64,000 nt of DNA, taken from the NCBI RefSeq assembly GCF_021215455.1, contig NZ_JAJPWV010000001.1, positions 62,001 through 126,000 on the forward strand, read 5' to 3'. The translations under genes and the position numbers were made by a program. The notes below the pieces were generated by a model, which was given only the letters and a program-made list of their open reading frames with translations, was not told the DNA's origin and did not search any database. Below, in pieces: positions 8,096-44,176 of the stretch. Source of the DNA: Mucilaginibacter roseus. Lineage in GTDB: Bacteria > Bacteroidota > Bacteroidia > Sphingobacteriales > Sphingobacteriaceae. The stretch's first letter is position 1; each line of letters opens with the position of its first letter.

Positions 8096-8104
8096 TAAGT
8101 TAAC

Positions 8105-8501: not shown

Positions 8502-8534
8502 TTGAACAGCGTTTAATATATTTGTACTGTTCAA
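8502..8534 (+). promoter_or_regulatory. Promoter with TetR-type operator before the SDR gene
   Basis: A TATATTTG -7 box (8517-8524) is flanked by inverted half-sites TTGAACAG (8502-8509) and CTGTTCAA (8527-8534). The left half extends to TTGAACAGCGTTTAA, nearly identical to TTGAACAGTGTTTAA at 10007-10021 before the efflux operon. The arrangement fits repression by occlusion of the promoter. The TetR gene at 9375 is the obvious candidate binder; that is inference. Confidence 0.65.
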
Positions 8535-8547
8535 TAAATATGGTTAT

Positions 8548-24880: not shown

Positions 24881-24884
24881 GATC

Positions 24885-25136: not shown

Positions 25137-25138
25137 GG

Positions 25139-25513
25139 TCAGCCGAATAAAAGTTCAACGGCAGGTTTAAACTTCGGGTCGGCATGCTTACCCTGCGCGG
25201 TATATTGCAACAGCGCATGCGCGGCAAACATGGCCATAAAGCCCCCGAACAACTGGTCAGCGAACACAGGCGCACTTTTGGCGAGGTCTTTCGGGTACTT
25301 GCCCAGTACCTTTTGCGTTTCTTTCGCCAGTTCAAACCATAGTTCCACGCCGAACAACTGGTCTTTCCATTCGGCGGCGATGCGTTCCCTGTCGTTTAAC
25401 ACCGTTTCGGCCAACTCTCCGAGATACCCCAGGAACGGGGGTATCTCGCTACTCATTAAGCTGTGCAAAAGCCTTGCTTTCTGCACGTTATTCAATATCT
25501 TCAATGGCTGCAT
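25139..25513 (-). CDS. Uncharacterised protein of the PRTRC locus
   Basis: A 124-aa mostly helical soluble protein with no motif I recognise. Its start overlaps the end of the DUF932 gene by 26 bp and its stop is 2 bp from the next gene, so it belongs to the same operon. Confidence 0.55.
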   Translation of the reverse strand: MQPLKILNNVQKARLLHSLMSSEIPPFLGYLGELAETVLNDRERIAAEWKDQLFGVELWFELAKETQKVLGKYPKDLAKSAPVFADQLFGGFMAMFAAHALLQYTAQGKHADPKFKPAVELLFG

Positions 25514-26591
25514 GATCTTTAGTTTTTAATGAAATTAACGCATCCGCACCCTGACGGGCGAAGTTCCCGCAGAGGTCAAAAGCTACCTGCGACCTTTGTT
25601 TGGCTGTTCCGTCCATGATGGATTTGAATTTGGCATCCCCGTCCTTAAAATTGCGGACGTTCTGATAATAGCCGGTAATGGCATTATATGCCCCGAACAC
25701 CGTCCCTGCGGTGGTTTCCATCTGTTGGGTCGGGTTACCCATCGCATAGGCATAGGCGTTATCCACGATATTGGTGTAGGTGCTCGATAACCGATCAGCC
25801 AAACCCAATTCCAGATTTTGAATAACTTCCTTATTAGGCGCCATAGCCACCTGTATCAGTTTCTTCACCTGCGCATCGGTAATACGCACCTTAGCCCAAT
25901 GATTAAAGAGTTCTTCCAGTTCCCCGGCCATCACATGGGAAATGCCCATCAAGGTATGCGCCTGTTTCAAACGGTCGTTAGCCGAAGCCGTATGCCTGAT
26001 CTTGATACCGCCGGATTGGTTCTTCATCGCTGCGTTCAGCGTGTTGTTGCAAACCACACGGGTCGGTGTAAAAGCAGCGGTGATACTCCCAAAACCATCG
26101 TGCGAAGTGGTCAGGAACAAATATTGTTCGATCAGATCCTGTTTACCCACCTTGATGTATTCAGGTAGTTTGGCCGTGATAAAGATGCGTTCACCCTTAC
26201 CCAAAGCCCCCGCCGTTTCGTACTTGATGCCGTCAGCACCACCCACAATGGCATCAAAGAACTGGAACGCATCAGCGTTCTGTACCACCGCATAGTCCTT
26301 ACCCACTACACCCAATACCGCATCGTTATCGGTGCGCACGGTCGCATAAAAACCGGGTACTTCGATGGATGGAAATGCCAAGTCCGTATCGATGTTGTCC
26401 AAACCCAGCCCCGCGCCATTGGTAAACAAAGGCCGTTTCTCCACCACATAGTCCAAACCTGCAAATCGGATGGCTTCCGCACTGGTCGGGTAATCCTCGA
26501 CGATCTGCCCCAAGCCGTGCCATGCTTTTTCCTTAACACTAAAGAAACTGTGCTTTGCGGTCTGTTCGTTATAAAAAAGGTTGTGTGCCAT
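25488..26591 (-). CDS. DUF932 domain protein (phage/plasmid-like)
   Basis: A 367-aa protein of the DUF932/phage-plasmid-like (TIGR03299) family. It begins MAHNLFYNEQTAKHSFFSVK and contains AWHGLGQIVEDYPTSAEAIR, YAVVQNADAFQFFDAIVG and FTPTRVVCNNTLNAA, all usual for this family. Members are common on plasmids, phages and integrative elements, often near SSB and anti-restriction genes; the function is unknown. Here it lies 38 bp downstream of an SSB gene and leads into the PRTRC cassette. Confidence 0.85.
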   Translation of the reverse strand: MAHNLFYNEQTAKHSFFSVKEKAWHGLGQIVEDYPTSAEAIRFAGLDYVVEKRPLFTNGAGLGLDNIDTDLAFPSIEVPGFYATVRTDNDAVLGVVGKDYAVVQNADAFQFFDAIVGGADGIKYETAGALGKGERIFITAKLPEYIKVGKQDLIEQYLFLTTSHDGFGSITAAFTPTRVVCNNTLNAAMKNQSGGIKIRHTASANDRLKQAHTLMGISHVMAGELEELFNHWAKVRITDAQVKKLIQVAMAPNKEVIQNLELGLADRLSSTYTNIVDNAYAYAMGNPTQQMETTAGTVFGAYNAITGYYQNVRNFKDGDAKFKSIMDGTAKQRSQVAFDLCGNFARQGADALISLKTKDHAAIEDIE

Positions 26592-26992: not shown

Positions 26993-27496
26993 GAACTTTA
27001 AATTTTAGTCGTTAAAAAAATAAAATGAACTAACTGCTTTCCCTTTACCTGTGCGACCCTCCCGGATAGCTATTTTTCAAAAGAAAAAACGGTAAAAAAG
27101 AAAGTCAAAAGAGCGGTCCTAAAGACGGAGCGGGAGAACTATAAGTCCCGGAGGGTGACCGGAACGAAGTGGAGGGCATTATGCGTTCGTACGGTACGGC
27201 TGACCGAACTTGACGCCTCTTTTGTCCGTTTTCTTTGGAAAATAGCGTAAGTGGCTACTCACTCCCAGCAGTCCTGTCCGTGTTTTGCAAATCCGGGAAA
27301 ACCGGTTTTTGCGCCCTTCAGCGGGAAGCTTTTGAGGAACCCGAAAATGCTGAGCGGCATTCTGGAAGTGATCAAAATGAAAAGCATTTCTCCGCAGCAA
27401 TTCGCTAACGCGCAGTTTACGCTCCTAATCTCAACCGGACAGCAAGCACAAAACGAACGGATCGAAACTTCAACCCCGTTTCCTTGTTCCCTATCC
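26993..27496. other. Divergent intergenic region between ssb and the UvrA2 gene
   Basis: About 500 bp. The left part is AT-rich and must carry the ssb-operon promoter. A GC-rich segment follows, with CCCTCCCGG near 27057 and CCCGGAGGGTG near 27148 that could pair imperfectly. An open frame extends upstream of the UvrA start to 27251, but that part shows no UvrA similarity. Because it lies between an ssb gene and a cargo gene on a mobile element, a replication or transfer origin here is possible but unproven. Confidence 0.4.
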
Positions 27497-30019: not shown

Positions 30020-30231
30020 AAGCAGATACCCCATCTTATCTGAATTTTGATACCGGCAAATATGCCTGGAAGCCGGACATCGACTATAAAAAGCATCCCG
30101 AACTTTATCGTGTGGGCAAAGGCGAACAAGGCGTACTGATCTGCGAACCGTACAAAAGCGAGATCGGGCCGAACTGGCGCTTCAAGACCGAGGAGCTTGC
30201 AGCGACCGATTGCGGAGCACTTTGTCGTTAG
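30016..30231 (+). pseudogene. DUF4385 gene, 3'-truncated
   Basis: The frame begins at an ATGA overlap with the UvrA2 stop and encodes 71 residues. The first about 60 fit the DUF4385 family: DIDYKKHPELYRVGKGEQGV then CEPYKSEIGPNWRFKTEE. The usual protein continues for roughly another 80-100 residues; here the match stops near 30200 and the frame ends in unrelated sequence (ATDCGALCR). The break marks a recombination point at the left edge of the lower-GC island. Confidence 0.7.
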
Positions 30232-30312
30232 AGGCACCGAATTCCCAACGCGCTATCCACCCATCAAAATCTTGAGAGTGATTCAGAACGCCATCTTACT
30301 TCATAGATGATG

Positions 30313-30933
30313 CTATTTTCTATTGGACCGTCGCTTTTTCTTTTGCTGTTTTTGCCAGCCTTCGAAATCGAGCTCGATCTTGGGTTTTAATATGCGTTGC
30401 CCAGCCCAAAAGGCATCGGTCGGATTGTCATAAGACTCCGAAATGATCTTGGGATTCAAGCCTTCGCCGAACGGACCATCAATCGCCACATACTCGTATG
30501 TCGTAGTCAGGCCCAAGTGTATCTTATATTCTTGAGGTTCTTCGCCAAAGAAAACCCAAAACGTCCGGTGCGGTACCTGTGCCGGCGGTCGCTCCCTTTT
30601 TTTGACCAGGTATTTTTCGGAGATCAGTGCATCTTCATTCCAACTGCGGCCCCAATCGTCACTGCTGCAAGGAGATTGTACTCGGGTAATGGATAATAAA
30701 ATTTCTTCGTTTCCGGTGCTGAGATCATTTGTAAAATCGTATTCAGAAAATTCAGCCGCAATGGTTTCATCAATAAAATAAGTGTCCTCGTTACTGTCGA
30801 ATTGCATTTGCGCACACGTACCGATCTGAAAGATATACAGCGGGTGGTTGGTTAGATTAGCGGTGATCGCTTCACGTATTTTACGTAAATGTTCGGTATC
30901 GTGGACGAAGTAGGTATAATTCAAGTATAACAT
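30313..30933 (-). CDS. Uncharacterised protein
   Basis: A 206-aa soluble protein, rich in aromatic and acidic residues, with a strongly basic C-terminal tail (GWQKQQKKKRRSNRK). I do not recognise a family. It is orphaned between the truncated DUF4385 gene and the rightward defence-like operon. Its divergent orientation and the 313-bp gap to the DUF4007 gene suggest independent expression. Confidence 0.5.
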   Translation of the reverse strand: MLYLNYTYFVHDTEHLRKIREAITANLTNHPLYIFQIGTCAQMQFDSNEDTYFIDETIAAEFSEYDFTNDLSTGNEEILLSITRVQSPCSSDDWGRSWNEDALISEKYLVKKRERPPAQVPHRTFWVFFGEEPQEYKIHLGLTTTYEYVAIDGPFGEGLNPKIISESYDNPTDAFWAGQRILKPKIELDFEGWQKQQKKKRRSNRK

Positions 30934-31246
30934 GATAAGTGTTGAAGGACGTTTTTATTTTCGGCTCTATGGCAATTACTTAGATAGAATTTAAGTGATT
31001 AATTTTGGTAAAATCATATATAATGGATATTTTTATAGATTAATTAACCTAAGCCTATTTCGATGAACATAATGCTTTCTATTCCTCAAGTTTAGTCAGT
31101 TTTTTTAACACTGAAAAGGTTGACTGTGAGTATATTTTTTCCTTAAAGTACCTTCCATCTTTTTGTTGTTAATAAATGTTGATGTACGCTCTGATAAAGA
31201 TTGGATAGCTTTGTTTTTGGATAGGCAGTTTTAAGGGGATAGAAGT
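30934..31246. other. AT-rich leader region of the DUF4007 operon
   Basis: A 313-bp AT-rich gap with no gene. It must carry the promoters for the leftward 206-aa gene and the rightward operon. Apart from the box at 31206-31213 no repeat or strong hairpin is seen. Confidence 0.5.
31206..31213 (+). promoter_or_regulatory. Candidate -7 box of the six-gene operon
   Basis: TAGCTTTG is an exact TAnnTTTG match, 33 bp before the DUF4007 start. An AAGGGGAT ribosome-binding-like stretch lies at about 31233-31240. Confidence 0.55.
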
Positions 31247-32122
31247 ATGAAAATAGGCTTTTCAGGCCATGAGACATTTGTTTGCCGCACCTTTTGGTTG
31301 AAGAAGGGTTACGACTATGTTACGGCTGGTCGTTCCTTCACTCAGGAGGATGCGGTCGTGCGGTTGGGTGTGGGTAAGAACATGGTGACGTCAATCAGTT
31401 TCTGGATGCGGGGATTCCATATTTTAGATCGCGAGCAACAGCAGATAACCCAATTAGGTAATTTTCTTTTTGAAGAACGCGATCCTTTTTTAGAGGATAT
31501 CGGTTCACTTTGGTTGCTGCATTACTCGGCAATCAAAAATGAAAAATTGTTTATTTTCAATAGTTTCTTTAACGAATTTTCTAAAGAACGAAGTGAGTTT
31601 ACCAAGGAGCATCTGATCAGCTTCATGAAGCGAAAAACAGAAGCAGAGGAGATGCGGCTGTTTAGCGATAAAACTTACGATTCTGACGCGAACGTATTAT
31701 TACGTACCTATCTGCGTTCGAATGATGGTAAAGTGGACTTGGAAGACGAAACGGCTAACTTATTAGTAGAACTTAATTTGCTTAGCGATTTTTACAAGGA
31801 AAATACGGAGGGTAGGCTGGTTCAATGGTATCGCATTGGCCGACAGGCACGCTACAATCTGCCGGGAGCCATATTGTTGTTTTCCATTTTGGATCGTTTT
31901 GGCGAGGAAAGTCAAAGTTTGTCTTTCGGCGACCTGCTGGAAGCGCCAAATAGCCCCGGCGTGATCTTCCGCTTGTCCGAAAAAGGTTTGGAAGAGCAAA
32001 TCAAAGAATTGGTCGATCAGTATGATGGCGAACTTATCTTTAGTGAAACAGCGGGAAACCAAGTCCTGCAAATCAAAAACAGGTTAGACAAGTGGCAAAT
32101 TTTGGAGGAATATTATGCGTAA
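31247..32122 (+). CDS. DUF4007 family protein
   Basis: A 291-aa protein. The N-terminus MKIGFSGHETFVCRTFWLKK is the DUF4007 hallmark (F-HETF-R-WL-K), followed by a predicted winged-helix part (VVRLGVGKNMVTSISFWMRG) that looks suited to DNA binding. The family is uncharacterised but, to my knowledge, tends to occur beside PAPS-reductase-type proteins in defence loci, as it does here. It is the first gene of the operon and overlaps the next by 8 bp, which points to a stable protein partnership with the P-loop ATPase. A role in target recognition is inference. Confidence 0.82.
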   Translation: MKIGFSGHETFVCRTFWLKKGYDYVTAGRSFTQEDAVVRLGVGKNMVTSISFWMRGFHILDREQQQITQLGNFLFEERDPFLEDIGSLWLLHYSAIKNEKLFIFNSFFNEFSKERSEFTKEHLISFMKRKTEAEEMRLFSDKTYDSDANVLLRTYLRSNDGKVDLEDETANLLVELNLLSDFYKENTEGRLVQWYRIGRQARYNLPGAILLFSILDRFGEESQSLSFGDLLEAPNSPGVIFRLSEKGLEEQIKELVDQYDGELIFSETAGNQVLQIKNRLDKWQILEEYYA

Positions 32123-35100
32123 TCATTTTTCACCTTCAGTCAATATTCTTACCCAGGAACTTGATCTTAGCCAATACTTCCTGACGACCAACGTGCAGGA
32201 TGTATACGATATGCTGAGGAATAATTACCGTTCCGGTCAACGGGCGATCAACCTGATCGGTGCCTACGGAACCGGCAAATCGTCATTTTTATCGGCGGTG
32301 ATGCAACATTTATCAGGTGAACGACTTTTTTATGAAGCCAAACCTTGGGTAGATACTAAGTCCTTCCACTTTTTGAAAGCGGTCAGTGAATATGATTCAT
32401 TTATCGGTCAATTTGCTGGATTGATTGGCTCAACTTCCGATAGACCACAACAGTTGCTTAAGGATTTTATTGCCTTACTGAGGTCAGCTAACAAACAAAA
32501 CGAAGTTGTTGTACTGATCTTTGATGAATTCGGCAAGATCCTGGAATATGCGGCCAAGCATGAGCCAGAAAAAGAGTTATACTTTATACAACAATTGGCC
32601 GAGCTTGTTAATAGTGGCGATGCCGAAGTGTTGTTACTGACCACTTTGCACCAGGACTTTGCGGGTTATGCCCAGCAACTGTCTAAACTGCAACGAAATG
32701 AGTGGGTGAAAGTCAAGGGCCGCTTTAAAGAGATCACTTTTAATGAACCGGTCGAACAATTGCTTTATCTGGCCAGCCAGCGACTAAATTCAGCAGTACC
32801 GGTAGCAGTTACAACTGCTTTCGAAAAGGTTTTTCAGGCTATCGTAGAGGCAAAAGTTTATCCATTGCGTGACTTTTTTAATGCCGAAGTAGCAGCCAAG
32901 CTTTATCCCTTGGATATATTAGCGGCGGCTGTACTTGCGCAGGCGCTACAACGTTATGGTCAGAACGAGCGTTCCTTGTTTAGTTTCCTTAATGGCGATA
33001 ATTATTTTGATCTGACGGACTTTGAATCTGGCAAGGCCAATTTCTATGGACTAAATGCTGTTTACGATTACCTCAACTATAATCTCAACTCGTTCCTGCA
33101 ATCCAAAGCAAATCCGGATTATACCTATTGGGCCGAAATTCGCAATGCGCTGGAACGAGTTGACGGCGAGTTTGATTTCACCAGACAGGCCACCTATCAG
33201 GCAGCAGTGAAAACCATTGGTATGATGCAGGTATTCCTCCCAGGGAGTGCTCGCATAGATCGGGAATTCCTGGCCACTTACCTGGACGGCATTTTAAATA
33301 CCAAGGACGGTGATGCAACTATTGGTGATCTTCAACAGCGCTGTATCATCCGTTATTACAAACGTACCGCTCGCTATACTTTGTATGAGGCGAGTGATGT
33401 TGATATCGATGTGGCTATTTCCAGCGCCGCAGCCGAGGTAAGTCGGGCCAATGATGTGGTCAAATATTTGAGTACATATTTTAATTTCCCTACCGTTTCG
33501 GCTAAACGCGCCTATTTTGAAAGGGGCACGCCACGTGTTTTTGAGTTTAAAATATCGGACAATCCTTATATATCCCAGTTACCTCAAGGTGAAATTGATG
33601 GTTTCGTTAATCTGCTCTTCAGCGATCTATTGACCGAAGCAGACATGATACGAATTTCTGGTGAACGCCGCGAGCCGATCCTTTATGGGCATTATCAAAA
33701 CACAGCCGAGATCAAGGAATTGATCGAAGAGATCGAAAAAGCGGAGATTGCCCGTGAAAAACACAAAAGTGACCGGATCGCTAAAAAGGAACTGGATGCG
33801 ATTATCGACCGGCAGCGTAATTTGCTTAATCACTATGTGATGAATAGCTTTTATAATCCGGCTATCGTGCGCTGGTTCTACCGCGGGGAGGAAGATCTGA
33901 CCATCACCAATGGCCGGCGTTTCAATGCGAAGCTTTCCGAAATCTGTGCTGATGTTTATGCCGACACGCCGATCTTCCGTAGTGAGTTGGCTAATAAAAC
34001 CAAACTTTCACCGTCCATATCCACAGCACGAAGGGAACTATTCCAAGCCCTATTCAACCATGAAGGCGCTGAAGACTTGAATATCAAAGGTTCGCCTCCG
34101 CAAAAAAGCATTTACTATTCGTTATTAAGGCAAACGGGTATACACGCACTGACGGATGGCCATTGGTTGCTTCAACAACCCGGACTTCAATTAGACCCCT
34201 TCCAATTCGGTCCTTTGTTTGCGTCTTGTGACCAATTCCTGGAAACCTCTCGCGGCATTAAACGCAGTGTAAGCGATCTTTATGGACAATTGAGCAAAGC
34301 GCCGTTCAAGTTAAAAAAAGGCTTTCTTGATTTTTGGGTGCCGATCTATCTGATATTAAAAAGATCAGATTATGCGCTTTATGGGGAATTTGGCTACATC
34401 ACCGATCTAAATGCTGAGATCTTGGAATTATTGGTCAAAAAACCGGGAGATTATGCGGTCAAAGCATTCGATGTAGCGGGTATCCGCATCAATATGTTTA
34501 ACCGGTACCGGGAAATGCTGCAATTACCTCAAAAGGAACGAACCGATAATGAGGCCTTCGTCCAAACGATCGTACCTTTTATCCGCTTCTATAAGGAATT
34601 GAATAGCTATGCGCAACATACCCGCCGCATCAGCACTTCCAGTCAGAAGATCAGAAAGGCGCTAACTAATGCCGAAGATCCGGAGCGATTATTTTTTGAG
34701 GATTTTCCGTCGGCGTTGGGCTTTGACCTGGTCCAATTGAATAAAGAGCCAGCCTTGTTAGCCGAATTCACTGAAGCTTTACAGCATGCGATCCGGGAAT
34801 TGCGGTCCGCCTATGAACAGTTATTAACCCGTTTCGAACTGGCCATTTGCTCGTTATGGGACAGCGAATTGTCATTCGGCGAATACAAAGCGAGGATCAG
34901 GGCACGTTACGAAAATGGCCTCAAAGAATATCTGTTGTTGCCCTATCAGCGCACTTTTTATAACCGCTTGTTGTCACCACTCGATGATCGCAAAGCCTGG
35001 TTATCCTCTGTGGCACAGTCAATCATTAATAAGCCCCTGGAGCAAAGTAACGATGAGGATGAATTACGCCTATTTAACCGGTTTCCCGAACTGATTCATG

Positions 35101-35348
35101 AACTGGATAATCTAAATGACATCGGCAAGAAAGAGGGCCAATCCGAATTAGAGGAAACATTCAAGATCGAGATCACTGTACCAGGCACTGCGGTTCGTCA
35201 ACAAGTTGTGACCATGCCCAAAAAGCAAAGCCGGAAATTCAGCGCCGCGCAGGAAGGCATCGCAACTGTTCTTGAAGGCGAGAACCGCTTTACTAAAATC
35301 GCTATATTAGCAGAAATGCTCAAAAAAGAATTGGCAAAAGATGGGTAA
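32115..35348 (+). CDS. Large P-loop ATPase, BrxC/DUF499-like
   Basis: A 1077-aa AAA-type ATPase. Walker A is GAYGTGKSS (residues 49-57). Walker B is VVVLIFDEFG (131-140). A sensor-like EVLLLTTLHQDF follows at 171-182, then QRNEWVKVKGRFKEITFNEP. The pattern TLHQ-F then R-EW-K--GRF is, as I recall it, shared with the large ATPases of BREX-type systems (BrxC). About 700 residues follow with coiled-coil segments (for example IEEIEKAEIAREKHKSDRIA near 540) and no other motif I recognise. In related defence systems such ATPases form large assemblies on DNA. It overlaps its neighbours by 8 bp on both sides, so it is probably the scaffold of the operon's complex. Confidence 0.75.
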   Translation: MRNHFSPSVNILTQELDLSQYFLTTNVQDVYDMLRNNYRSGQRAINLIGAYGTGKSSFLSAVMQHLSGERLFYEAKPWVDTKSFHFLKAVSEYDSFIGQFAGLIGSTSDRPQQLLKDFIALLRSANKQNEVVVLIFDEFGKILEYAAKHEPEKELYFIQQLAELVNSGDAEVLLLTTLHQDFAGYAQQLSKLQRNEWVKVKGRFKEITFNEPVEQLLYLASQRLNSAVPVAVTTAFEKVFQAIVEAKVYPLRDFFNAEVAAKLYPLDILAAAVLAQALQRYGQNERSLFSFLNGDNYFDLTDFESGKANFYGLNAVYDYLNYNLNSFLQSKANPDYTYWAEIRNALERVDGEFDFTRQATYQAAVKTIGMMQVFLPGSARIDREFLATYLDGILNTKDGDATIGDLQQRCIIRYYKRTARYTLYEASDVDIDVAISSAAAEVSRANDVVKYLSTYFNFPTVSAKRAYFERGTPRVFEFKISDNPYISQLPQGEIDGFVNLLFSDLLTEADMIRISGERREPILYGHYQNTAEIKELIEEIEKAEIAREKHKSDRIAKKELDAIIDRQRNLLNHYVMNSFYNPAIVRWFYRGEEDLTITNGRRFNAKLSEICADVYADTPIFRSELANKTKLSPSISTARRELFQALFNHEGAEDLNIKGSPPQKSIYYSLLRQTGIHALTDGHWLLQQPGLQLDPFQFGPLFASCDQFLETSRGIKRSVSDLYGQLSKAPFKLKKGFLDFWVPIYLILKRSDYALYGEFGYITDLNAEILELLVKKPGDYAVKAFDVAGIRINMFNRYREMLQLPQKERTDNEAFVQTIVPFIRFYKELNSYAQHTRRISTSSQKIRKALTNAEDPERLFFEDFPSALGFDLVQLNKEPALLAEFTEALQHAIRELRSAYEQLLTRFELAICSLWDSELSFGEYKARIRARYENGLKEYLLLPYQRTFYNRLLSPLDDRKAWLSSVAQSIINKPLEQSNDEDELRLFNRFPELIHELDNLNDIGKKEGQSELEETFKIEITVPGTAVRQQVVTMPKKQSRKFSAAQEGIATVLEGENRFTKIAILAEMLKKELAKDG

Positions 35349-36450
35349 TAACACGGTCAGACATGTCTTGGGAATATCAGGTGGTAAAGATAGTGCGGCA
35401 TTAGCGATCTACATGCAAACGCTGTACCCAGCCATGCAAATCGAGTACTATACCTGTGATACCGGAAAAGAGCTGGACGAAACGTACCAACTAATCCGCA
35501 ACCTGGAATCCAAGTTAGGTGTTAATGTGCATAAACTTTATGCACCGACGGCTGATAAAGAAAATCCATTTGACTATTATCACCATTTATATGGTGGTTT
35601 TTTGCCATCTTCCAATACCCGTTGGTGTACCCAGAAATTGAAGATAGAGCCTTTTGAGAACTATATAGGAACAACACCTGTGCTCTCCTATGTGGGTATA
35701 CGTGGTGATGAAGACCGAGAAGGTTATATTTCGACCAAATCCAATGTACAGTCCATTTTTCCGTTCCGAAAAAATATTTGGAGTGAAGAAGTGGTTCTTA
35801 AGGCGATGTCTAACAGCAATATTTCCAAGATGGGAAAATTGTACAAAGAATTTTTGCCGGCTAACCTTTACCAGCGGGCGTTGGATATCGTTAACACGCC
35901 ATTATCTTTTTCTTACGGGCAAAACCAAAAAGTAAAGAACCTGCTTGATCTGGGTCCTAAGGCATTCAATCACGTCATCTTTGAATTGCTCAGATCAACG
36001 AATTTCCCGGTCGCGTCGCTTGATGATTTCCCGTTACTGGATAACGATGAAGTACTTGTCCGGGCTGATATTTTCCGTATACTCGAAGAAAGTGGTGTGG
36101 GTATTCCGCAGTATTATAAAGAGATCCCTTACCAGGTCAATGGCAAAACCGGGAATTATAACCGGAGCCGTTCCGGCTGCTTTTTCTGCTTCTTCCAGCA
36201 AAAGATCGAATGGGTATGGCTTTATGAGCAAAACCCGGCCAAGTTTTTCCTGGCCATGGAGTACGAAAAAGACGGCTATACCTGGAACCAGAACGAACGC
36301 CTCGAAGATCTGATCAACCCCGAGCGTATCCAACAGATTAAAGAAGAATTTTTAACCAAGCAAGTACTTGCTAAAAGCCGTATGCAATCAGGAAGACTTA
36401 TTGATATTCTTGATGCTGAAGAAGAAGGCTGCGCGAGTTGCTTTATCTAA
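35341..36450 (+). CDS. PAPS reductase-family PP-loop protein (DndC/BrxP-like)
   Basis: A 369-aa protein. The PP-loop is VLGISGGKDSAALAI (SGGKDS at residues 13-18), which binds ATP for adenylation. NTRWCTQKLK (Cys 96) matches the C-x-x-x-LK element of the family. Further Cys pairs are at 280/283 (SGCFFCFF) and at the very C-terminus 364/367 (GCASCFI), which could bind an iron-sulfur cluster or zinc. Relatives include PAPS reductase, DndC (DNA phosphorothioation) and BrxP of BREX type 4. No dndA/B/D/E, sspA-D or pglZ gene is in the window, so it is not a standard version of those systems. It overlaps the ATPase gene by 8 bp. Confidence 0.85.
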   Translation: MGNNTVRHVLGISGGKDSAALAIYMQTLYPAMQIEYYTCDTGKELDETYQLIRNLESKLGVNVHKLYAPTADKENPFDYYHHLYGGFLPSSNTRWCTQKLKIEPFENYIGTTPVLSYVGIRGDEDREGYISTKSNVQSIFPFRKNIWSEEVVLKAMSNSNISKMGKLYKEFLPANLYQRALDIVNTPLSFSYGQNQKVKNLLDLGPKAFNHVIFELLRSTNFPVASLDDFPLLDNDEVLVRADIFRILEESGVGIPQYYKEIPYQVNGKTGNYNRSRSGCFFCFFQQKIEWVWLYEQNPAKFFLAMEYEKDGYTWNQNERLEDLINPERIQQIKEEFLTKQVLAKSRMQSGRLIDILDAEEEGCASCFI

Positions 36451-36469
36451 CCTAAATATCATATCATCA

Positions 36470-37600
36470 ATGGTCTACTCAACTACTGAATGGGACTTAC
36501 AAACGCTTATTGATTATTATAATAATAATCAGATCAACTTGAACCCGCCTTATCAACGCGGCGATATTTGGAGCGCTGCTTCGAAAAAGAGGCTGATCGA
36601 ATCTATCAAATCAGAATACCCGTTGCCAATTTTCTTTTTATATCGGACCGATACCGGGGTATTTGATATGGTGGACGGTCAGCAAAGAACCAGAACGATA
36701 TTAGGTTATGCCAAGGGCTTATTTGCTGACACTGAGAAAAAGACAATCAATGAAACAGATCGTAATTTCTTTTTCAAACAATACAAAATTGCGGTATGTG
36801 TCATCACTAAGGCACAAGAAGGTGAAGTTGAGGACTTTTATTTTCGAGTAAATAAATTTGGTTCTAAACTAAATCGTCCGGAAATCTTAAAGGCCCAGTT
36901 CAGGAATTCCGTATTGCAAAAATTGGTTGAAAGCATTTCTGATAGTCCACAGTTTACTTCGCTGAATATTTTTACAACCGCTACGTTAAACCGGTTAAGC
37001 GATCTGGATTTTGTCGGAGAGTTGTTAACGCTGACCAAGGACGGTATAACTGACAAAAAGATAGCGGTTGACCGCTTTTATGAAGATGCAAACTTTACGG
37101 AGCATGCCGCCAAGGATTTAGAAGTGAAATTTTATAATGTTTTAGATGACGTTATCCGTTTCAATGAGATTTACGAAATTGAAAAAACAAGGTATAAACA
37201 ACGAAACGACTTTTATACGCTATTTAATTTTTTGCTCAATAATCGGGAGCTGCATAAAGATACCTTAGATTATTTTTATCAATTGTTAGTGGTTATAGAT
37301 CCGGACATTTCCCCTTCACAAGAGAACTGTTATGCTTTTCAAGAATATGCGACTAATTGTGTGACCCAATCCAATTCTAAGAAAGCAAGGGAAGAGCGAT
37401 TAAGATTTTTTAACGAATTCTTACTCAACGAAACAAGTCTGATTGACTTGGATGATGCATCTGAAAGTACGATGAAGGATGTATTATTGTTTTATGGATT
37501 TCAGACCGATGTTTTAGTATCGGTGGAAAAATTTCAAGTGGTGAACAGGGATAGGTTGATTGAGAAAACTCAAAGAAACTATTTCGATGAAGTTGTTTAG
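36470..37600 (+). CDS. DUF262 (ParB/Srx-like) protein
   Basis: A 376-aa protein from ATG 36470, 19 bp after the PP-loop gene; an upstream in-frame ATG inside that gene is unlikely. The DUF262 signature is clear: LNPPYQRGDIWSAASKKRLI, then PLPIFFLYR and VDGQQRTRTI near residues 20-80. DUF262 is found in the DNA-targeting nucleases GmrSD and SspE, where it binds nucleotide and senses modification. No DUF1524 HNH nuclease domain is visible here; the C-terminal 200 residues are helical and unassigned. It might be a reader subunit that acts with another nuclease of the island. That role is inferred. Confidence 0.85.
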   Translation: MVYSTTEWDLQTLIDYYNNNQINLNPPYQRGDIWSAASKKRLIESIKSEYPLPIFFLYRTDTGVFDMVDGQQRTRTILGYAKGLFADTEKKTINETDRNFFFKQYKIAVCVITKAQEGEVEDFYFRVNKFGSKLNRPEILKAQFRNSVLQKLVESISDSPQFTSLNIFTTATLNRLSDLDFVGELLTLTKDGITDKKIAVDRFYEDANFTEHAAKDLEVKFYNVLDDVIRFNEIYEIEKTRYKQRNDFYTLFNFLLNNRELHKDTLDYFYQLLVVIDPDISPSQENCYAFQEYATNCVTQSNSKKAREERLRFFNEFLLNETSLIDLDDASESTMKDVLLFYGFQTDVLVSVEKFQVVNRDRLIEKTQRNYFDEVV

Positions 37601-38543
37601 AAACAATATCAGTCTGTCCGAGAAGGCTGATTATAGCCTGGATGACGATGCCAATATCATTGTAGCCGATGGTAACGAATATATATTGTCTTATTTAACG
37701 GAAGATTTCAAGTCTTCCAAAGGTGGTAATAGCAGTGTGTTTTTAGCCACCAACAAAAAAACCAAAGATACTGTCGTTATTAAAATATCTAGTTACGCTA
37801 AGCCCGGTCGTAAAACAAAACCAACCATTATTCGTCGTTATGGGCGATTTATTGAAGAAATCAAGGTTTTGTATGAATTGAAAGAAAAAGGGAAAGACAA
37901 CGTTGTCGAGATTTTGTTCGACGGCGTGATTACGTTAGAAAATAAGGAGTTCCCTTACTACGCGATGGAGAAAGCCGATACGGATTTGAAAGAGTACATT
38001 TTCAGCAACAAAGATCTGGATAGCCAGGAAAAGGTAAAATTTTGTATCAACGTATATGATGCGATCAATCAATTACATACTGAAGGATATTACCACAGAG
38101 ATATCAAACCTGATAACATTTTATTGTTTTTAGAGGATAAAGAAAATCCTAGTGGCAACGCCGTGTGGAAAATCGGTGACCTGGGTTTACTCCAACATCG
38201 TGAAAAAGATTATGATGACCTGGGCGAGAAAATTGGACCTTTTGGCTGGCTTTCTCCCGAAGCTGGTAACAAATTTTTGACGGAAGAGGCTCAGCTAGGC
38301 TTCGACTGCGCTATCGATGACCGTTCCGATGTATTTCAATTAGGTAAATTATTCTGGTTCATATTCCAGGGGAATATTCCTATTGGTCAATTAAAGGAAG
38401 AGGATTTTGTCTGTAAGATCGACCATAGTCAATACATATTTTCTGTAATCGAGTGCATGTTGAGTTATGCTAAGCCTAGACGTATCGATATGTCGGGTTT
38501 AGGAGGATTATTACACGATCTGAAATTATCTTTTGCTGTATGA
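37587..38543 (+). CDS. Hanks-type Ser/Thr protein kinase
   Basis: A 318-aa kinase from ATG 37587 (MKLFRNNISLS); an alternative ATG lies 27 bp upstream, inside the DUF262 gene. The gly-rich loop is SKGGNSSVFLA, the ATP-anchoring Lys is in TVVIKISS, the catalytic loop is YYHRDIKPDNILL, and the DFG position reads IGDLGLL, a variant found in some active bacterial kinases. GPFGWLSPE stands for the APE region. No membrane segment is present, so it is cytosolic and consists of little more than the kinase domain. The start overlaps DUF262 by 14 bp and the end overlaps kptA by 4 bp. It may phosphorylate an operon partner or host target. Confidence 0.87.
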   Translation: MKLFRNNISLSEKADYSLDDDANIIVADGNEYILSYLTEDFKSSKGGNSSVFLATNKKTKDTVVIKISSYAKPGRKTKPTIIRRYGRFIEEIKVLYELKEKGKDNVVEILFDGVITLENKEFPYYAMEKADTDLKEYIFSNKDLDSQEKVKFCINVYDAINQLHTEGYYHRDIKPDNILLFLEDKENPSGNAVWKIGDLGLLQHREKDYDDLGEKIGPFGWLSPEAGNKFLTEEAQLGFDCAIDDRSDVFQLGKLFWFIFQGNIPIGQLKEEDFVCKIDHSQYIFSVIECMLSYAKPRRIDMSGLGGLLHDLKLSFAV

Positions 38544-39085
38544 GTAATAACCTGAGCGTTAAGATCAGTCGACTAATGAGTTTAGCCCTACGGCATTCGC
38601 CAGAGACGCTTGGTATCACATTAGATGAGAACGGATGGTGTGAAGTACCAAAACTCTTAACTGGTCTCGAAAATAAGGGGCATTCAATTAATATAGATAC
38701 GTTAACTGCGATCGTCAAGTCAAATGAAAAGCAACGATTCGCTTTTGATGACTCGGGAACGCGTATTCGCGCGAATCAGGGACATTCATTAAATGTTGAC
38801 CTGGGATTGAGCGAAGCCGTTCCACCGGAATATTTGTTCCATGGCTCTACAGTTTCGAATCTTGCCTCCATTCAAGCTAACGGTTTACTAAAAGGTGGTC
38901 GCCAACACGTTCATCTCTCTACGGATTTTGATACCGTCTTAGCGGTGGGTAAAAGACATGGCAAACCCCTGATATTTCAGGTTTCAGCTGGCAAGATGGC
39001 TACTGAGGGGTATAAATTTTTCGTTTCCGCTAACGAGGTGTGGTTAACGGATTTTGTGCCACCTGAATTTATTCAAGTGTTGTAG
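38540..39085 (+). CDS. kptA: RNA 2'-phosphotransferase, Tpt1/KptA family
   Basis: A 181-aa protein of normal KptA length. Key family motifs are present: SLALRHSPETLGITLDENGW (with Arg18-His19), RANQGHS at residues 77-83, LFHGST at 99-104, and HVHLSTD at 123-129. KptA removes an internal 2'-phosphate from RNA with NAD+, giving ADP-ribose 1'',2''-cyclic phosphate; it completes tRNA splicing in eukaryotes, while bacterial roles are unclear. Some family members ADP-ribosylate RNA or DNA ends. The start overlaps the kinase stop by 4 bp (ATGA), so it is clearly part of this operon. That context suggests nucleic acid end-modification linked to defence. Confidence 0.9.
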   Translation: MSNNLSVKISRLMSLALRHSPETLGITLDENGWCEVPKLLTGLENKGHSINIDTLTAIVKSNEKQRFAFDDSGTRIRANQGHSLNVDLGLSEAVPPEYLFHGSTVSNLASIQANGLLKGGRQHVHLSTDFDTVLAVGKRHGKPLIFQVSAGKMATEGYKFFVSANEVWLTDFVPPEFIQVL

Positions 39086-39090
39086 GATAA

Positions 39091-41724
39091 CTAAGCTCTG
39101 CCGCAACAATGCTTGTATTTCTTTTGACTTCCGCAGGGACATAGCTGATTTCTTCCAATACTGTTTGTACTGGCAACTGGTATTTTCCGTTGGATCATCC
39201 TAATGTATTGCTCATACATTTCAATATTGTTGTGTCCACCCGGAAAGTTATAGCGGTAAATCTCAATCGCTTTCTCCGCGCACTGGATACTTTCGTGATA
39301 TTGTCTTAAACCATCTTTAATTACTGCCAGCGTGCTGTATGAATTAGCCACTTCATAGTGCATTTCGCCTAAGCCATTGATTTCTAATGCGATGGCCTGA
39401 AGCTGATATTCCTCGGCTTTAATGTAATTTCTTCTTTTAATGTATATGGCCGCCAAATTGTTAAAGGTGGTACCCAAGGTAAATGACTCCTCGCCAAAGT
39501 ATTGTTTCTTAAAGTCCAGTGATTCGTTAAATAATGTTTCTGCTTTGTCAAGTTGGTTCAGCCCTTCATAAACAGCAGCTAAATTGTTCCTGGATTCATC
39601 AAGTTGAGGATGTCCGGCTTCGAGTACCCGTTTTCTCATTTCAAAGGCTTTTAATTGGTAGCCCAACGCCTTATTGTCTTCGCCTATGCGACTTAGCAGT
39701 GACGCGTAAGTCGAATAAGTAGAGGCTAAATTTGGATGTTCGCCACTGAAAGCGTTTTCCGCAATCGCCAGGGATTTTTCCATTAAGGTGAGGGCCAAAT
39801 TTAAATTGCCCTTGATGTCATAAAGTAGCGCTAAGTTGTTATATGACGCGCCAATATCAAAATGCGGCGGCTGAGAAATCCGCTCTTGTATTTTTAATGC
39901 TTTATATTGATAATCGATGGCGTTGTCTATCGATCCCAGTGTCTTATAAACCGATTGAAGATTATTATATATACCTGCGAGATCATCCTCATACTCTTCC
40001 GCACGTGTTTTATAAAAGGCCTCTGCGGCGTGATAGTTATTCACTGCAGGGCCAAACTCATCAAAATCCTCTAGTCTGAGTCCAAGCGCGTTACATAAGG
40101 TTGCCATTTCAGATGAATGACATGGTATATAATTAATCATATGCTGCGCATGGGCGATAAAACGTTTGGTTTTAATGGGATTACCGTCCCAATCTATTAG
40201 CAAGAGATCCGTAAGAGATATGATCAATGGTTTAACGGTTTCTGGATCAGGTTGCAGTTGTTCACGAATTACCTCCTGGATCACTTGGTGCATAGTGTAA
40301 CTGTTGTTTTCCTGCAGTAACCAGCCACGCCCAGCTAGCTCGGTAATAAGATCGAAAAAATCGTTGTCATCGTCGAGGACAGCAAACAGCAATTTTAGAT
40401 CGTCGTAAATGACATAATCGGATCTTAAGACTGAAAAGAAACTTAATGCGTGTTGCTGTTTGGTATCAAGCCCCGCCAAAGAAAATATCTTTTTCAAATA
40501 GGCCATTAAATGGGTTGGTAGGCCCGTAGGGTCATGTTCGGTCGTGACTTTTGCAGTTCTGGAAATATTCAGGCCTTCTTCCTTGAGCATCTGAGAAAGT
40601 TCTTTCAATTTAAAGGACCTCTTCTGCGCGGTCTTGGCCAATAGTTCAATCGTCAGGGTGTGGTTTCCGATTTGTTCGACGATCCATTTTGTTGTTACTA
40701 CATCAGATTCCAATAAGTAAAATTTTTGGAATAATAGCACAGAAGCATCCTGGTCAAGCAATGGCAGTTCAATAATCGTTTCAAAGGGAATCTTGATCCT
40801 TGATGTTATCAGGGCTTGCCATCTTGGAAAGCCGGGTAGCTGGTTTCTGACCCTCATGATGGACAGCGGTGCATTGTCTACCATCAATAAGTTTTTACCC
40901 GGCATATTGGCCAACTTATTTAATAAAATTTGCATGGCATTTTCCAACGCTATCCCCGGTTCAAAATTTAATTTCAGATTTTTGAGCAATACCGGGTTCG
41001 CTATGAACGATTTTATCAAGAAATCATTTTCGTAATTACCTTGTTCATCAGCAGCGTAATCTATCCATAAAATATGGTCATAATTCTCGAGCAGTGCATC
41101 AGCTGCAAGTTTTAACAATGTCGTTTTCCCGATCCCGCCCATTCCGTGAATTAAGATTGTTGGAGAGCCGGCAGTCACCAACTGTTCCAATCGAGTAAGA
41201 TCAGCTGCCCTGCCTATTACATCATTAGCGGCGACAGGCGGCATTGTTGTTAGTATTTTCGGAATCTCGTCTGCTTCGTGATCAAATTGCGGATAATATT
41301 TTTTTCTGATCGTTAAATACTCTGAAATGTAAACCTCCAACTCTTCCCAGGAAATGAATTTAATTCTGAAGGTCAATAATTGGCTTTGTTGAGCGGCGTA
41401 ATCTTCAATTACACTATATCTTTTGGTATTGGTAGCAAAAACGAGTTCATCAAATGTAAAAGGTAAGCGTTTTACCAGGTTAAGCGTTTCCTTCAAATCT
41501 GCTAAAAGTTCCTTTTCAATTGCTTTATCAGACCTTAGCAGTTTTTTCTTTTTACTTTGAATAACGGTCCGAAACCGGAGCGAATAGGAGTCTATTCCAA
41601 ACTGTGCTGCGCCTTTTGTTTTATATAACTGGAAGTCTTCGGTTTGATAGAGCGCATTGTAAATATCTTTGCATAACTGCTGAAATAGGTTCTCGTCGCT
41701 AATGGCCGGATATTGATAGAACAT
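39091..41724 (-). CDS. NLR-like protein: nuclease-like domain, STAND NTPase, TPR, SEC-C
   Basis: An 877-aa multidomain protein. Residues 1-150 resemble a restriction-endonuclease-like (PD-(D/E)xK) domain: LFQQLCKDIYN, QFGIDSYS with Asp45, and VIQSKKK with the Q-x-K at 56-58. Residues 165-480 form an NB-ARC/NACHT-type ATPase: GRAADLTRLEQL, Walker A GMGGIGKTT (194-202), Walker B KNLLMVDNA, sensor ALITSR. About residues 590-830 are tetratricopeptide repeats of the 42-residue kind (for example YNNLALLYDIKGN). The C-terminus is a SEC-C zinc motif with Cys 862, 864, 873 and 874. Such proteins sense phage products through repeats and fire the N-terminal effector. It lies 2 bp from the GHKL gene. Confidence 0.82.
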   Translation of the reverse strand: MFYQYPAISDENLFQQLCKDIYNALYQTEDFQLYKTKGAAQFGIDSYSLRFRTVIQSKKKKLLRSDKAIEKELLADLKETLNLVKRLPFTFDELVFATNTKRYSVIEDYAAQQSQLLTFRIKFISWEELEVYISEYLTIRKKYYPQFDHEADEIPKILTTMPPVAANDVIGRAADLTRLEQLVTAGSPTILIHGMGGIGKTTLLKLAADALLENYDHILWIDYAADEQGNYENDFLIKSFIANPVLLKNLKLNFEPGIALENAMQILLNKLANMPGKNLLMVDNAPLSIMRVRNQLPGFPRWQALITSRIKIPFETIIELPLLDQDASVLLFQKFYLLESDVVTTKWIVEQIGNHTLTIELLAKTAQKRSFKLKELSQMLKEEGLNISRTAKVTTEHDPTGLPTHLMAYLKKIFSLAGLDTKQQHALSFFSVLRSDYVIYDDLKLLFAVLDDDNDFFDLITELAGRGWLLQENNSYTMHQVIQEVIREQLQPDPETVKPLIISLTDLLLIDWDGNPIKTKRFIAHAQHMINYIPCHSSEMATLCNALGLRLEDFDEFGPAVNNYHAAEAFYKTRAEEYEDDLAGIYNNLQSVYKTLGSIDNAIDYQYKALKIQERISQPPHFDIGASYNNLALLYDIKGNLNLALTLMEKSLAIAENAFSGEHPNLASTYSTYASLLSRIGEDNKALGYQLKAFEMRKRVLEAGHPQLDESRNNLAAVYEGLNQLDKAETLFNESLDFKKQYFGEESFTLGTTFNNLAAIYIKRRNYIKAEEYQLQAIALEINGLGEMHYEVANSYSTLAVIKDGLRQYHESIQCAEKAIEIYRYNFPGGHNNIEMYEQYIRMIQRKIPVASTNSIGRNQLCPCGSQKKYKHCCGRA

Positions 41725-41725
41725 T

Positions 41726-44176
41726 TTATTCGCTGATCATTTGTAGTAAATCGTTCGTGCCGAAGTTCAAGATGAATTCGGAGTAAAAGCTGGAAAATAG
41801 ATCTCGTAAATATACTTCCAGGTCTATTTCCTTGTTATTATCATCTTCTTTAGAGATCGCATATTTACGGTTCTTGGTGATGGTATAGAGAAACAGCGTA
41901 TGGAAATAAACGGAGGAGATGTATTTTTTATCGGCTATTTCGATGGTCGTGGCATCTTTATGTTTGGATTTGAAGGCTTTCAGGACGTGGCTGTCCATGT
42001 TGATGATGATCTTGTCGAGGTTGCCGCCGCTGACCTGCGGGGCCATGACGGTGTTATAGTCGATCTCGGCATCAATGCCTTCTGATACTTTGTCCCAGGT
42101 TTGGAAACCTTCGCGGGCTTCTTTATAGACCAAAACAAAAGGCGGTAATCCGATATGTTGGTCGTCTTCTTTTTCGATCTTCTTGGTTTCTTCTTTTTTC
42201 TGTTCCGGGTCGCTGATCTTGACCAGGAACAATTCTTCAAAGTCTTCGCCCGGACCGGTCAGGGTCACTTTCATTTCGATTTCGTCACCGACCCGTACCT
42301 CGTTTTTAGTGTTCAGATTCAATCGGATAGTGCCTTCGTGCGGACTGGAGGTGGTGACGTTGAAGATCGTTTCGATCACCTCTTCCTTACCGGGTGCCGT
42401 GCCGCCATTGGCCTCGTTTTTCCCTTTATAGCTGATGATGCCCACTTTGAACTCGCCGGGTTCTTCGATACGGTCAAAATAATGGTTCTCGACATCGGTT
42501 TTAAAGAAAATTGTCTTGTCCTGGCCCCGGGGCAGGTTGATCGCGGCGATGCCTTTATCTGTCGAGGATTTGATCTTTAAAAAAGAGGGAAAGCGTTGTG
42601 GCTTGAACGGCTCTTTTTCTTCCCGGTGCTGAACTTCTTTTTTCTGTTCTTTTGGTTTGGGCTTATCGTCCTTTTGTTCCAGTTTGAATGTCTGGTTGAG
42701 CAGGCGCATCAGCGCGCTGTCCATCGGTAGGTTCTTGGAAAACGACTTCAGCATCTCCGTCGTGTCTTTGGAGTCCACTGAGATGGAATCCTTGCGGCGC
42801 TTTTCGATCTCGGCCAGGCGACCTTTAACGGTACCGAGTTTGGAGGCGAGAAATTTTCGCAGCTGGGTGGTCTCGTCACCTTCTTTCAACCGGTCACGGG
42901 AGGCCATAAACAGTTCCTTCCGGAAATTGTAATGCATATGGGTACAGTCCACATGGATAAGCAGGTGGTATTTCAGCAAATTGAATTTGAGCGAGCGGGT
43001 AATGAATTCCGAGGTAAAATTGCCATGCACCTGTCCGTTAACCGAGAACATGACCGACATGTTGTTCTTGAAGAACTCCCGCTGGATCGCTTCTTTGGTT
43101 TCTTTGATGTTTTTATCCTCGATGCGGGTTTTGAATACATAACACGTTACTTTGAACTTGCCAAAGGGTTCTTCCGCGTAGTTTTCGGAAAAATAGTCTT
43201 CGACATAACGGTTATCCTCCAACTCTAAACGGCGTTTTAAGCCGTAAAGGTCACGTTCCAGATTCCGGTCATCGGGATAACGATATTTGCGATCAACCGT
43301 CAGGATCGGTAATGCCGGCTCAAATAAATATTCATTAATGCTTTGATTCAGGTCGCGGGAGATCACCGAACGGCTTCCGGCGGGTAAGTCATAAGAGTAC
43401 AATTTCATGACCGTACCGGTCTCGAACCAGGTCTCGTGCAAACCTAAGTCTAACTTACTGATCTTAAAAGCCGGGATCACCCCGTCGATTTTTAAAAACT
43501 CGTACCAGGTATTTTTCTTACGGCCTTCTTCTTCTTTGGTCAAAGGATGTTCCCGAACGAAAGTGAAGCCAAAATCTCCGGTCTTATCAAAACGGCGTGA
43601 ACCGATCAACTGGTAACCTTTCTTGCCACAAAATATAATCGCACCGCTACCTCCCATATTGTATTTACCCTGTACAAAATGGATCTCGTTCTTATTGCCG
43701 CGCAGCAAGGATAAAAAAGTCTGTTCAAAATCATCAGGGTGCTGCCCCTCACCATTGTCATAAATGGTCAAGGACGGCGTCAGCTTCGGCCCGTCAGCCA
43801 GGATCTGTAAATTCTTCGCCTGGTTCTTACGCGGATTATTCAAGTCCCAATTCTTGTAATCCGGAAAAAAAAGCTCCCGTGCTTCATCCATCGTTTTCGG
43901 CGCCGAAGCGGATTTCGGATCGATATTCGTTTCATAACATTTCTTCATCAACGTGGCATCAATCGAATTCGTGATCTTTTCGATCAAAGCCGCGATCGGC
44001 GAAGCCTGCTGGTTCTCAATCACCCCGTAATTATTTTCATTCCCACCTAAGGGGTACCAATTATTACCGTTAAATATATTCGGATTGTCGTTGATCACTT
44101 GGTCGACTTGTTCTTCGGTATGAGCGGCGTATAAATTTTCGAATAGCTGTTGTGGTGTAAGTGAAGGTCCGGACAT
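41726..44176 (-). CDS. GHKL (Hsp90-like) ATPase, large
   Basis: An 816-aa protein. The Bergerat fold has an N-box LIEKITNSIDATLM (residues 64-77), the G1 box IYDNGEGQHP (138-147) and the G2 box VQGKYNMGGSGAI (168-180). A transducer-like segment follows to about residue 450 with SRDRLKEG. A Lys/Glu-rich linker (about 500-530) leads to a beta-rich region and an unassigned helical C-terminus. It has no topoisomerase or MutL signature; it is closest in layout to uncharacterised large HATPase proteins of defence islands. It lies 2 bp upstream of the NLR-like gene, so both are made together. Confidence 0.78.
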   Translation of the reverse strand: MSGPSLTPQQLFENLYAAHTEEQVDQVINDNPNIFNGNNWYPLGGNENNYGVIENQQASPIAALIEKITNSIDATLMKKCYETNIDPKSASAPKTMDEARELFFPDYKNWDLNNPRKNQAKNLQILADGPKLTPSLTIYDNGEGQHPDDFEQTFLSLLRGNKNEIHFVQGKYNMGGSGAIIFCGKKGYQLIGSRRFDKTGDFGFTFVREHPLTKEEEGRKKNTWYEFLKIDGVIPAFKISKLDLGLHETWFETGTVMKLYSYDLPAGSRSVISRDLNQSINEYLFEPALPILTVDRKYRYPDDRNLERDLYGLKRRLELEDNRYVEDYFSENYAEEPFGKFKVTCYVFKTRIEDKNIKETKEAIQREFFKNNMSVMFSVNGQVHGNFTSEFITRSLKFNLLKYHLLIHVDCTHMHYNFRKELFMASRDRLKEGDETTQLRKFLASKLGTVKGRLAEIEKRRKDSISVDSKDTTEMLKSFSKNLPMDSALMRLLNQTFKLEQKDDKPKPKEQKKEVQHREEKEPFKPQRFPSFLKIKSSTDKGIAAINLPRGQDKTIFFKTDVENHYFDRIEEPGEFKVGIISYKGKNEANGGTAPGKEEVIETIFNVTTSSPHEGTIRLNLNTKNEVRVGDEIEMKVTLTGPGEDFEELFLVKISDPEQKKEETKKIEKEDDQHIGLPPFVLVYKEAREGFQTWDKVSEGIDAEIDYNTVMAPQVSGGNLDKIIINMDSHVLKAFKSKHKDATTIEIADKKYISSVYFHTLFLYTITKNRKYAISKEDDNNKEIDLEVYLRDLFSSFYSEFILNFGTNDLLQMISE

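Follow-up and report, generated by a model that had tools for sequence, protein, structure and literature searches.

What kind of system is encoded by the six-gene operon at positions 31247–39085 of the stretch of the Mucilaginibacter roseus genome analysed here (64,000 nucleotides of contig NZ_JAJPWV010000001.1, hereafter the window)? The operon consists of six co-directional open frames on the + strand, free of internal stops and spaced by −8, −8, +19, −14 and −4 bp. Their Pfam domains are, in gene order, DUF4007, AAA-type ATPase, PAPS_reduct, GmrSD_N (= DUF262), Pkinase and PTS_2-RNA/KptA. An initial annotation had described these six genes with the same coordinates, with overlaps of 8, 8, 14 and 4 bp and one 19-bp gap, as one tightly coupled operon, which the open frames confirm. 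It had also held that the set matches no Ssp system. This is wrong because PADLOC names the first three genes as SspB, SspC and SspD (values in Table 1). By sequence, the locus is a DNA phosphorothioation (PT) locus. We report that the DUF262 and kinase genes form a conserved pair associated with ssp genes, and that a GHKL ATPase gene to the right of the operon (here HATP) occurs in a slot filled by different genes in sister loci.

The proposal of a nucleic-acid-modifying core, made of the DUF4007 protein, the ATPase and the PP-loop enzyme, can be upheld as SspBCD on the PADLOC assignments; the three homologues are joined by the two 8-bp overlaps. No SspA is encoded in the operon. In known systems an IscS ortholog can stand in for SspA (PMC8092258). 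Elsewhere in the genome there are three strong class-V aminotransferase matches (310, 267 and 247 bits), among which a cysteine desulfurase may be present. Among the 10 window proteins of 27251–44176, PADLOC gave no match to PglZ or BrxL, and a sequence search found no solved structures similar in sequence to SspC or HATP. The G+C content is 0.43–0.45 for genes 1–3, 0.37–0.38 for DUF262 and kinase, and 0.44 for KptA, a hint that the operon genes may have separate origins.

Conservation of the fourth and fifth genes was analysed in a collection of 84,980 genomes, which was scanned with a three-row DUF262 alignment and two short peptide patterns; 228 matching stretches led to 45 loci. The query contained no ssp gene, and neighbours were scored on open frames with custom profiles. 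The kinase was found in 44 of the 45 loci, directly adjoining DUF262 in 43 and beyond two inserted frames in L099; L079, the sole locus without a visible kinase, ends at a contig edge. One or more of sspB, sspC and sspD are present in the fetched DNA of 41 loci (in L079 and L098 as weak sspD pieces only). SspD is the frame preceding DUF262 in 34; for 33 of them the spacing lies between −47 and +31 bp, and for the remaining one it is 415 bp. SspA is present in eight. According to the records, 37 loci are from Bacteroidota and two from Ignavibacteriota, with single loci from Planctomycetota, Nitrospirota, Thermodesulfobacteriota, Elusimicrobiota, Campylobacterota and Aminicenantes (for which the table gives no phylum). 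The pair is visible in seven of these eight lineages; Planctomycetota is represented by L079, in which no kinase can be seen.

The pair additionally occurs on plasmids of two more lineages. DUF262 matches were present in 109 plasmid records, of which five with high-ranking matches were examined. On an Asticcacaulis plasmid, the pair is convergent with genes for a PAPS reductase, an ATPase, DUF4007 and a cysteine desulfurase. On a Pseudanabaena plasmid it adjoins an FtsK-type gene and a cysteine desulfurase gene, with DUF4007 16 kb off. DUF262 of a Sphingopyxis plasmid adjoins an FtsK-type gene and has an insertion sequence element in the kinase position. On Rhizobium and Rhodococcus plasmids, neither the kinase nor ssp genes were found in the stretch inspected around DUF262.

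Within the window's phylum, three of 395 genomes gave DUF262 subfamily scores of 475, 461 and 396 bits, and each of these matches lies at an ssp locus. The best remaining score was 146 bits, and none of the ten next-best loci, which were fetched, contained this kinase or ssp genes. The distances for DUF262 correlate with those for the kinase (r 0.86, 45 rows), and both correlate with the distances for SspC (r 0.56, 34 rows; none of 2000 permutations as high); SspB and SspC served as reference (r 0.92). DUF262 and kinase form a conserved pair that is not named as a part of Ssp in the annotation libraries used. The operon had been put forward as an undescribed system: by profile searches the trio belongs to the named Ssp, and what is left of the claim is this pair conserved with it. 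DUF262, kinase and KptA had also been taken for sensor/effector arms whose company with the trio should be counted in other genomes. For DUF262 and kinase the counts given above bear out such company. KptA was found in none of the 45 DUF262 loci and in none of 20 other ssp loci.

The DUF262 alignment comprises 41 rows: the window protein, that of L068 and those of 39 of the 45 loci (left out were L079, L099, L107, L119 and L121; L091 was treated as the same contig as L068). All 41 contain GmrSD_N and none contains GmrSD_C, the DUF1524 HNH nuclease. The pattern D69-GQQR-73 (DGQQR) is invariant. The predicted structure (mean predicted local distance difference test score, pLDDT, 92) was compared with solved folds: residues 1–132 match the SspE N-terminal domain with a Z-score of 8.5–8.8 at a root mean square deviation (rmsd) of 3.1–3.3. 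Z is 9.3 for BrxU (rmsd 10) and 6.7 for DndI (rmsd 9), both within an rmsd range of 9–11 over about 280 residues, and about 7–8.5 for ParB-type CTPases. All these Z-scores are moderate. Foldseek returned ParB-type matches at E 0.01 and none under 0.001. By sequence and model, the window protein is SspE-like, yet it does not have the nuclease that characterizes SspE. SspE reads PT via a tyrosine pocket and has a DGQQR-dependent GTPase acting on PT (PMC9646914, PMC13251355). The Y28-Q29-R30 motif of this pocket is present in the window protein, and the tyrosine is found in 40 of the 41 aligned proteins, with phenylalanine in one. We had considered this motif as proof of PT sensing and dropped it because Y-Q-R also occurs in a control DUF262 (L173) which adjoins an ordinary methylation restriction–modification (R-M) system.

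All 44 aligned kinases of the family (L111 and L119 were left out) show the Pkinase domain. Residues K66, E91, H170-R-D172, K174, N177 and D198 are invariant in these rows, and we take them to be the catalytic motifs. The window kinase has no Pfam domain besides Pkinase. It scores 31 bits with the BREX_PglW model (cut-off 990) and 33 bits with that of the MADS kinase MAD6 (NCBIfam cut-off 460), and thus belongs to neither by these models.

The initial annotation ended the locus at 39085. This is too short on the right, where the GHKL ATPase gene recurs in other ssp loci, and too generous in including KptA. HATP was found in 11 of the 395 phylum genomes by alignment search, and the six best matches (939–1589 bits) are all at ssp loci; that of G267 lies beside sspB and a short sspC, with no sspD seen. 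A strong SspC (at least 300 bits) is present in 22 of the 395 genomes, which gives a hypergeometric probability of 1.5e-8 for the overlap of HATP and ssp. The five weaker matches (85–620 bits) have no sspB, sspC or sspD nearby, and one is near a MutH-like gene. Seven plasmid records contain a HATP match; the best three were examined, and ssp genes were present in all three. The HATP model (mean pLDDT 76.5) matches the ATPase modules of Hsp90, SMCHD1 and ParE with E-values between 1e-9 and 1e-8. By sequence, the HATPase_c_3 score is 21.8 bits for HATP of the window, below the cut-off of 25, and 25.6 for that of L062. The GHKL module and the S5-like transducer that mark paraMORC proteins are thus seen in the fold, with weaker support from sequence. 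The paraMORC GHKL families were predicted in 2008 for R-M systems (PMC2292703), and the window protein, as modelled, fits them.

HATP is present in 15 of the 45 DUF262 loci; two of these have it in the same direction as the kinase, the other 13 in convergent orientation. Another 15 loci contain PbeA/C-like genes, two a helicase–MORC–PLD triad, and 13 none of these. Never were two of the three arms found in one locus (permutation 6.5e-5). The same was seen in 21 phylum ssp loci (that of the window and 20 fetched, of the 22 strong ones; G387 and weak SspC matches were left out), where the three arms are distributed 6/6/6 with zero overlap and three loci are without an arm. Here the permutation value is 1.4e-4 with the triad defined as helicase plus MORC, and 0.00125 if the lone 601-residue HATPase_c_3 protein of L073 (95 bits) is scored as a second arm; all these probabilities are optimistic because the loci share ancestry. 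Exclusivity fails for a HEF_HK-like GHKL type, ‘c11’, which occurs with PbeA in L065, L072 and L074; a ‘c11’ match in L103 (24 bits) was disregarded as chance. PADLOC confirms PbeA for L058 only (1111 bits), where the PbeC match is weak. The names SspF/SspG/SspH, tried for the triad, turned out to be wrong: in L059 and L075, on which the identities were tested, it consists of an SF2 helicase, a MORC-like GHKL ATPase (HATPase_c_3) and a PLD-like protein. Assignment of the other triads rests on custom profiles. Triad-armed ssp loci are L059, L060, L061, L064, L070 and L075, and L092 and L097; no PLD-like gene is seen in L064, which ends early.

When the arms were mapped on a tree of DUF262 plus kinase (44 rows; L079, which has no kinase, and L121 were left out), the arm label changed nine times, the minimum being 2 and the mean after shuffling 12.6, with a value as low in one of 200 shuffles. 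The arms thus cluster somewhat yet swap often. HATP co-varies with SspC (r 0.66, 16 rows; none of 2000 permutations as high). Arm exchange together with the pattern of co-variation suggests a core with two separately mobile modules.

The junction between kinase and HATP is also a site of other genes. In the window, KptA and a STAND-type gene lie there and appear to be local insertions. KptA overlaps the kinase by 4 bp, and its residues R18, H19, R66 and R121, the Arg-His-Arg-Arg tetrad of KptA/Tpt1 (PMC6333775), are present and invariant across 19 aligned KptAs. The enzyme is otherwise treated as an RNA-repair enzyme (PMC9503650), and a link of KptA to phosphorothioation was not found in the open-access library searched. 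We inspected the neighbourhoods in 20 of 46 other KptA-bearing genomes and found no ssp gene, DUF262 or kinase of these families near KptA in any of them. KptA as a core part was rejected, since it is absent beside ssp in all other loci inspected; it is probably a passenger at an insertion point, though it may have a private role in this strain. The STAND-type protein had no relative in 73 other loci when searched with a one-sequence profile. Its N-terminal region, as judged by eye, resembles a PD-(D/E)xK restriction-type nuclease. The gene lies 1 bp behind the GHKL gene, and the two may share a transcript. In other loci, the junction carries a Mrr_cat-like protein (L086, below the family cut-off) or proteins that look membrane-bound by eye (L105, L110). 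On a Hymenobacter plasmid (L123, 14433–16311), an ssp-linked DUF262 gene is followed by a SIR2-domain gene in the place of the kinase, before HATP. A Nuc_deoxyri_tr2-like (nucleoside deoxyribosyltransferase-like) protein with a partner of 210–212 residues was found in L058 (8058–9084), L067 (5803–6820) and L081 (12786–13781); it follows SspD in the first two and is near the kinase in the third. This looks like another Ssp add-on.

From the observed gene identities, linkage, conserved active-site residues and modular exchange, we lean modestly towards Ssp PT defence with two independently mobile add-ons, a DUF262-gated kinase layer and a GHKL restriction arm. Together with a cysteine desulfurase encoded at another genomic site, SspB, SspC and SspD would mark host DNA with PT, as SspABCD does among the homologues, where DUF262 of SspE hydrolyses GTP on PT (PMC9646914, PMC13251355). 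The window DUF262 protein keeps the nucleotide-hydrolysing fold of the PT-reading SspE domain. Since the HNH nuclease is missing, the protein's output must take another route; the likeliest recipient is the kinase, whose gene follows with an overlap. DUF262 may act as a sensor, either of nucleotides or of the PT/self state of DNA, that gates the kinase. Possible kinase substrates are the restriction arm, the Ssp proteins and an essential target in the host. The convergent GHKL ATPase, in the slot of the PbeA/C-like or helicase–MORC–PLD genes of sister loci, would be the restriction arm and is likely to clamp down on unmarked DNA, driven by ATP.

Several observations weigh against this proposal. 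The Y-Q-R motif is shared with the DUF262 protein of the methylation R-M locus L173, and the query rows of the DUF262 scan were drawn from ssp loci. Four of the 45 DUF262 loci are without ssp genes: contig ends truncate L101 and L119, and the 10 kb upstream in L103 and L117 are free of ssp. SspC was not found in the genomes of these four, all of which are metagenome-assembled genomes (MAGs). (Neither was it found in the genome of L079, and that of L098 does have one; five of these six records are MAGs.) The kinase is missing at three of the five plasmid DUF262 places examined. In L062, which belongs to one of only three phylum genomes that have the pair, a frame change disrupts the DUF262 gene (7516–8612). 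HATP contains no nuclease domain, has relatives of 24–38% identity outside ssp loci, and co-varies weakly with DUF262 (r 0.21; 51 of 2000 permutations as high) and kinase (r 0.24; 46 of 2000).

The alternative that survives best, which we regard as possible though doubtful, is a suicide (abortive-infection) backup in which DUF262 notices PT loss or attack, the kinase poisons the cell and the arm restricts. The SIR2-domain protein in the kinase place between ssp-linked DUF262 and HATP, the Nuc_deoxyri_tr2-like proteins and the Mrr_cat-like and membrane-bound-looking inserts would suit it. However, the SIR2 replacement was seen at a single locus, whose DUF262 is distant (94 bits), no Pfam domain besides Pkinase is present in the window kinase, and the pair is found with all three arm types. 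This last point is also what would be expected if the pair were a regulator that adjusts PT modification, similar to DndB, without any defence output, which appears unlikely to us. DndB has been assigned to the ParB superfamily and described as a negative regulator (PMC10853773), and L067, a locus with ssp and HATP from the window's own family, has DndB and no pair. On the other hand, DndB occurs together with the pair in L109 and beside it on the Asticcacaulis plasmid, so that the two are not simple replacements for each other.

That pair and HATP are separate defence genes merely gathered with Ssp in defence islands is more improbable still: the ssp-free flanks of L103 and L117, the HATP-like genes outside ssp loci and the weak co-variation of HATP with the pair agree with it, but not the ssp genes of 41 of the 45 loci, SspD immediately before DUF262 in 34, the co-variation of the pair with SspC and the mutual exclusion of the arms. 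A single machine of all six genes, in which KptA repairs or ADP-ribosylates RNA, is very hard to maintain, despite the 4-bp overlap and the intact tetrad, in view of the absence of KptA from the 45 DUF262 and 20 other ssp loci, the 20 KptA loci without ssp, DUF262 or kinase of this family, and the other inserts found at the junction.

Table 1. Genes of the ssp region and its surroundings in the window, with assignments from sequence and model comparison.
Feature	Positions	Strand	Evidence
SspB (DUF4007; DNA-binding/nicking subunit of PT modification)	31247..32122	+	PADLOC SspB 1.3e-90; Pfam DUF4007 1.1e-73
SspC (BrxC/PglY-related AAA+ ATPase)	32115..35348	+	PADLOC SspC E=0, 1182 bits; BrxC 242 bits
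SspD (PAPS-reductase-like ATP pyrophosphatase)	35341..36450	+	PADLOC SspD 6.9e-87; PAPS_reduct 6e-9
DUF262-only protein without HNH nuclease, related to the N-terminal domain of SspE	36470..37600 (ATG at 36470)	+	GmrSD_N; SspE-like fold
Stand-alone Hanks-type protein kinase, 318 aa	37587..38543 (ATG at 37587)	+	Pkinase; invariant active-site residues
KptA/Tpt1 RNA 2'-phosphotransferase, probable passenger	38540..39085	+	NF002014 239.1 bits, cut-off 239
STAND-type protein (NB-ARC, TPRs, SEC-C), putative local insertion	39091..41724	-	Pfam NB-ARC, TPR, SEC-C
paraMORC-like GHKL ATPase (HATP), candidate for an alternative Ssp restriction arm	41726..44176	-	recurrence beside ssp genes; Hsp90/SMCHD1/ParE-type fold
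429-aa protein	19946-21235	+	weak SIR2_2 match, 20.8 bits, cut-off 24.5
PRTRC system protein E and DUF932 protein	24290-26591	-	
UvrA-like protein	27251-30019	+	TIGR00630, 899 bits
1586-aa protein	44776-49536	-	N-terminus sacsin-like GHKL; C-terminal domain NO VEIN

Among the neighbours, the UvrA-like gene is directly left of the region, and the genes for PRTRC system protein E and the DUF932 protein lie on the same side, at a distance of about 5 kb from the ssp operon. Weak partial relatives of the 1586-aa protein adjoin ssp genes in L066 (30% identity over 125 aa) and L077 (25% over 564 aa).

The window locus shares SspB, SspC, SspD and a DUF262 protein with DGQQR with SspABCD–SspE, and differs from it in the missing DUF1524/HNH nuclease, the kinase next to DUF262 and the extra GHKL ATPase. 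DndI of DndBCDE–DndI and BrxU, members of the GmrSD family, have the same ParB-like DUF262 fold, but these are single-chain DUF262–HNH nucleases, whereas the window protein is nuclease-less and adjoins a kinase. PbeABCD systems likewise combine PT modification with an exchangeable arm, and PbeA/C-like genes are found in the arm slot of 15 of the 45 sister loci; the window carries the GHKL ATPase in this slot. The nearest published systems found are kinase-fused DndF, with a protein kinase inside DndFGH defence (PMC10853773), and type-4 BREX, with an SspB/C/D-like PT modification set (PMC12839542); in contrast to the latter, the window shows no PglZ or BrxL match and has DUF4007 and PAPS reductase as separate genes. 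Pgl/type-2 BREX also has a kinase within DNA-modification defence, adjoining a BrxC-like ATPase (PMC12839542, PMC10853773), but PglW is a NERD–kinase(–wHTH) protein of 1400–1600 residues and the window kinase a lone one. The paraMORC proteins of R-M systems resemble HATP as GHKL plus transducer ATPases adjoining DNA-modification genes (PMC2292703); the window protein differs in being coupled to PT marking, and no helicase gene was identified beside it.

In a survey of sspBCD loci, 2,211 of 2,678 were without both sspE and sspFGH, and further restriction partners were asked about (PMC8092258). Links of Ssp or PT to a kinase, a DUF262–kinase pair, GHKL or MORC were not found described in the open-access library searched, which covers neither subscription papers nor preprints. 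Our tentative proposal, to which we give slightly less than an even chance, is a phospho-signalling layer in PT immunity: a nuclease-free DUF262 PT reader with its kinase would be a standard exchangeable Ssp module across many lineages, and a nuclease-less paraMORC GHKL ATPase would be one of three mutually exclusive arms that may explain many ‘orphan’ sspBCD loci. Testable candidate partners for sspBCD loci are thus available, namely the GHKL, helicase–MORC–PLD and PbeA/C-like arms and the DUF262–kinase pair riding with all three. If the proposal is true, protein phosphorylation would join PT marking as an antiphage signal, in parallel to the kinases of Pgl/BREX and of some DndF proteins (PMC12839542, PMC10853773).

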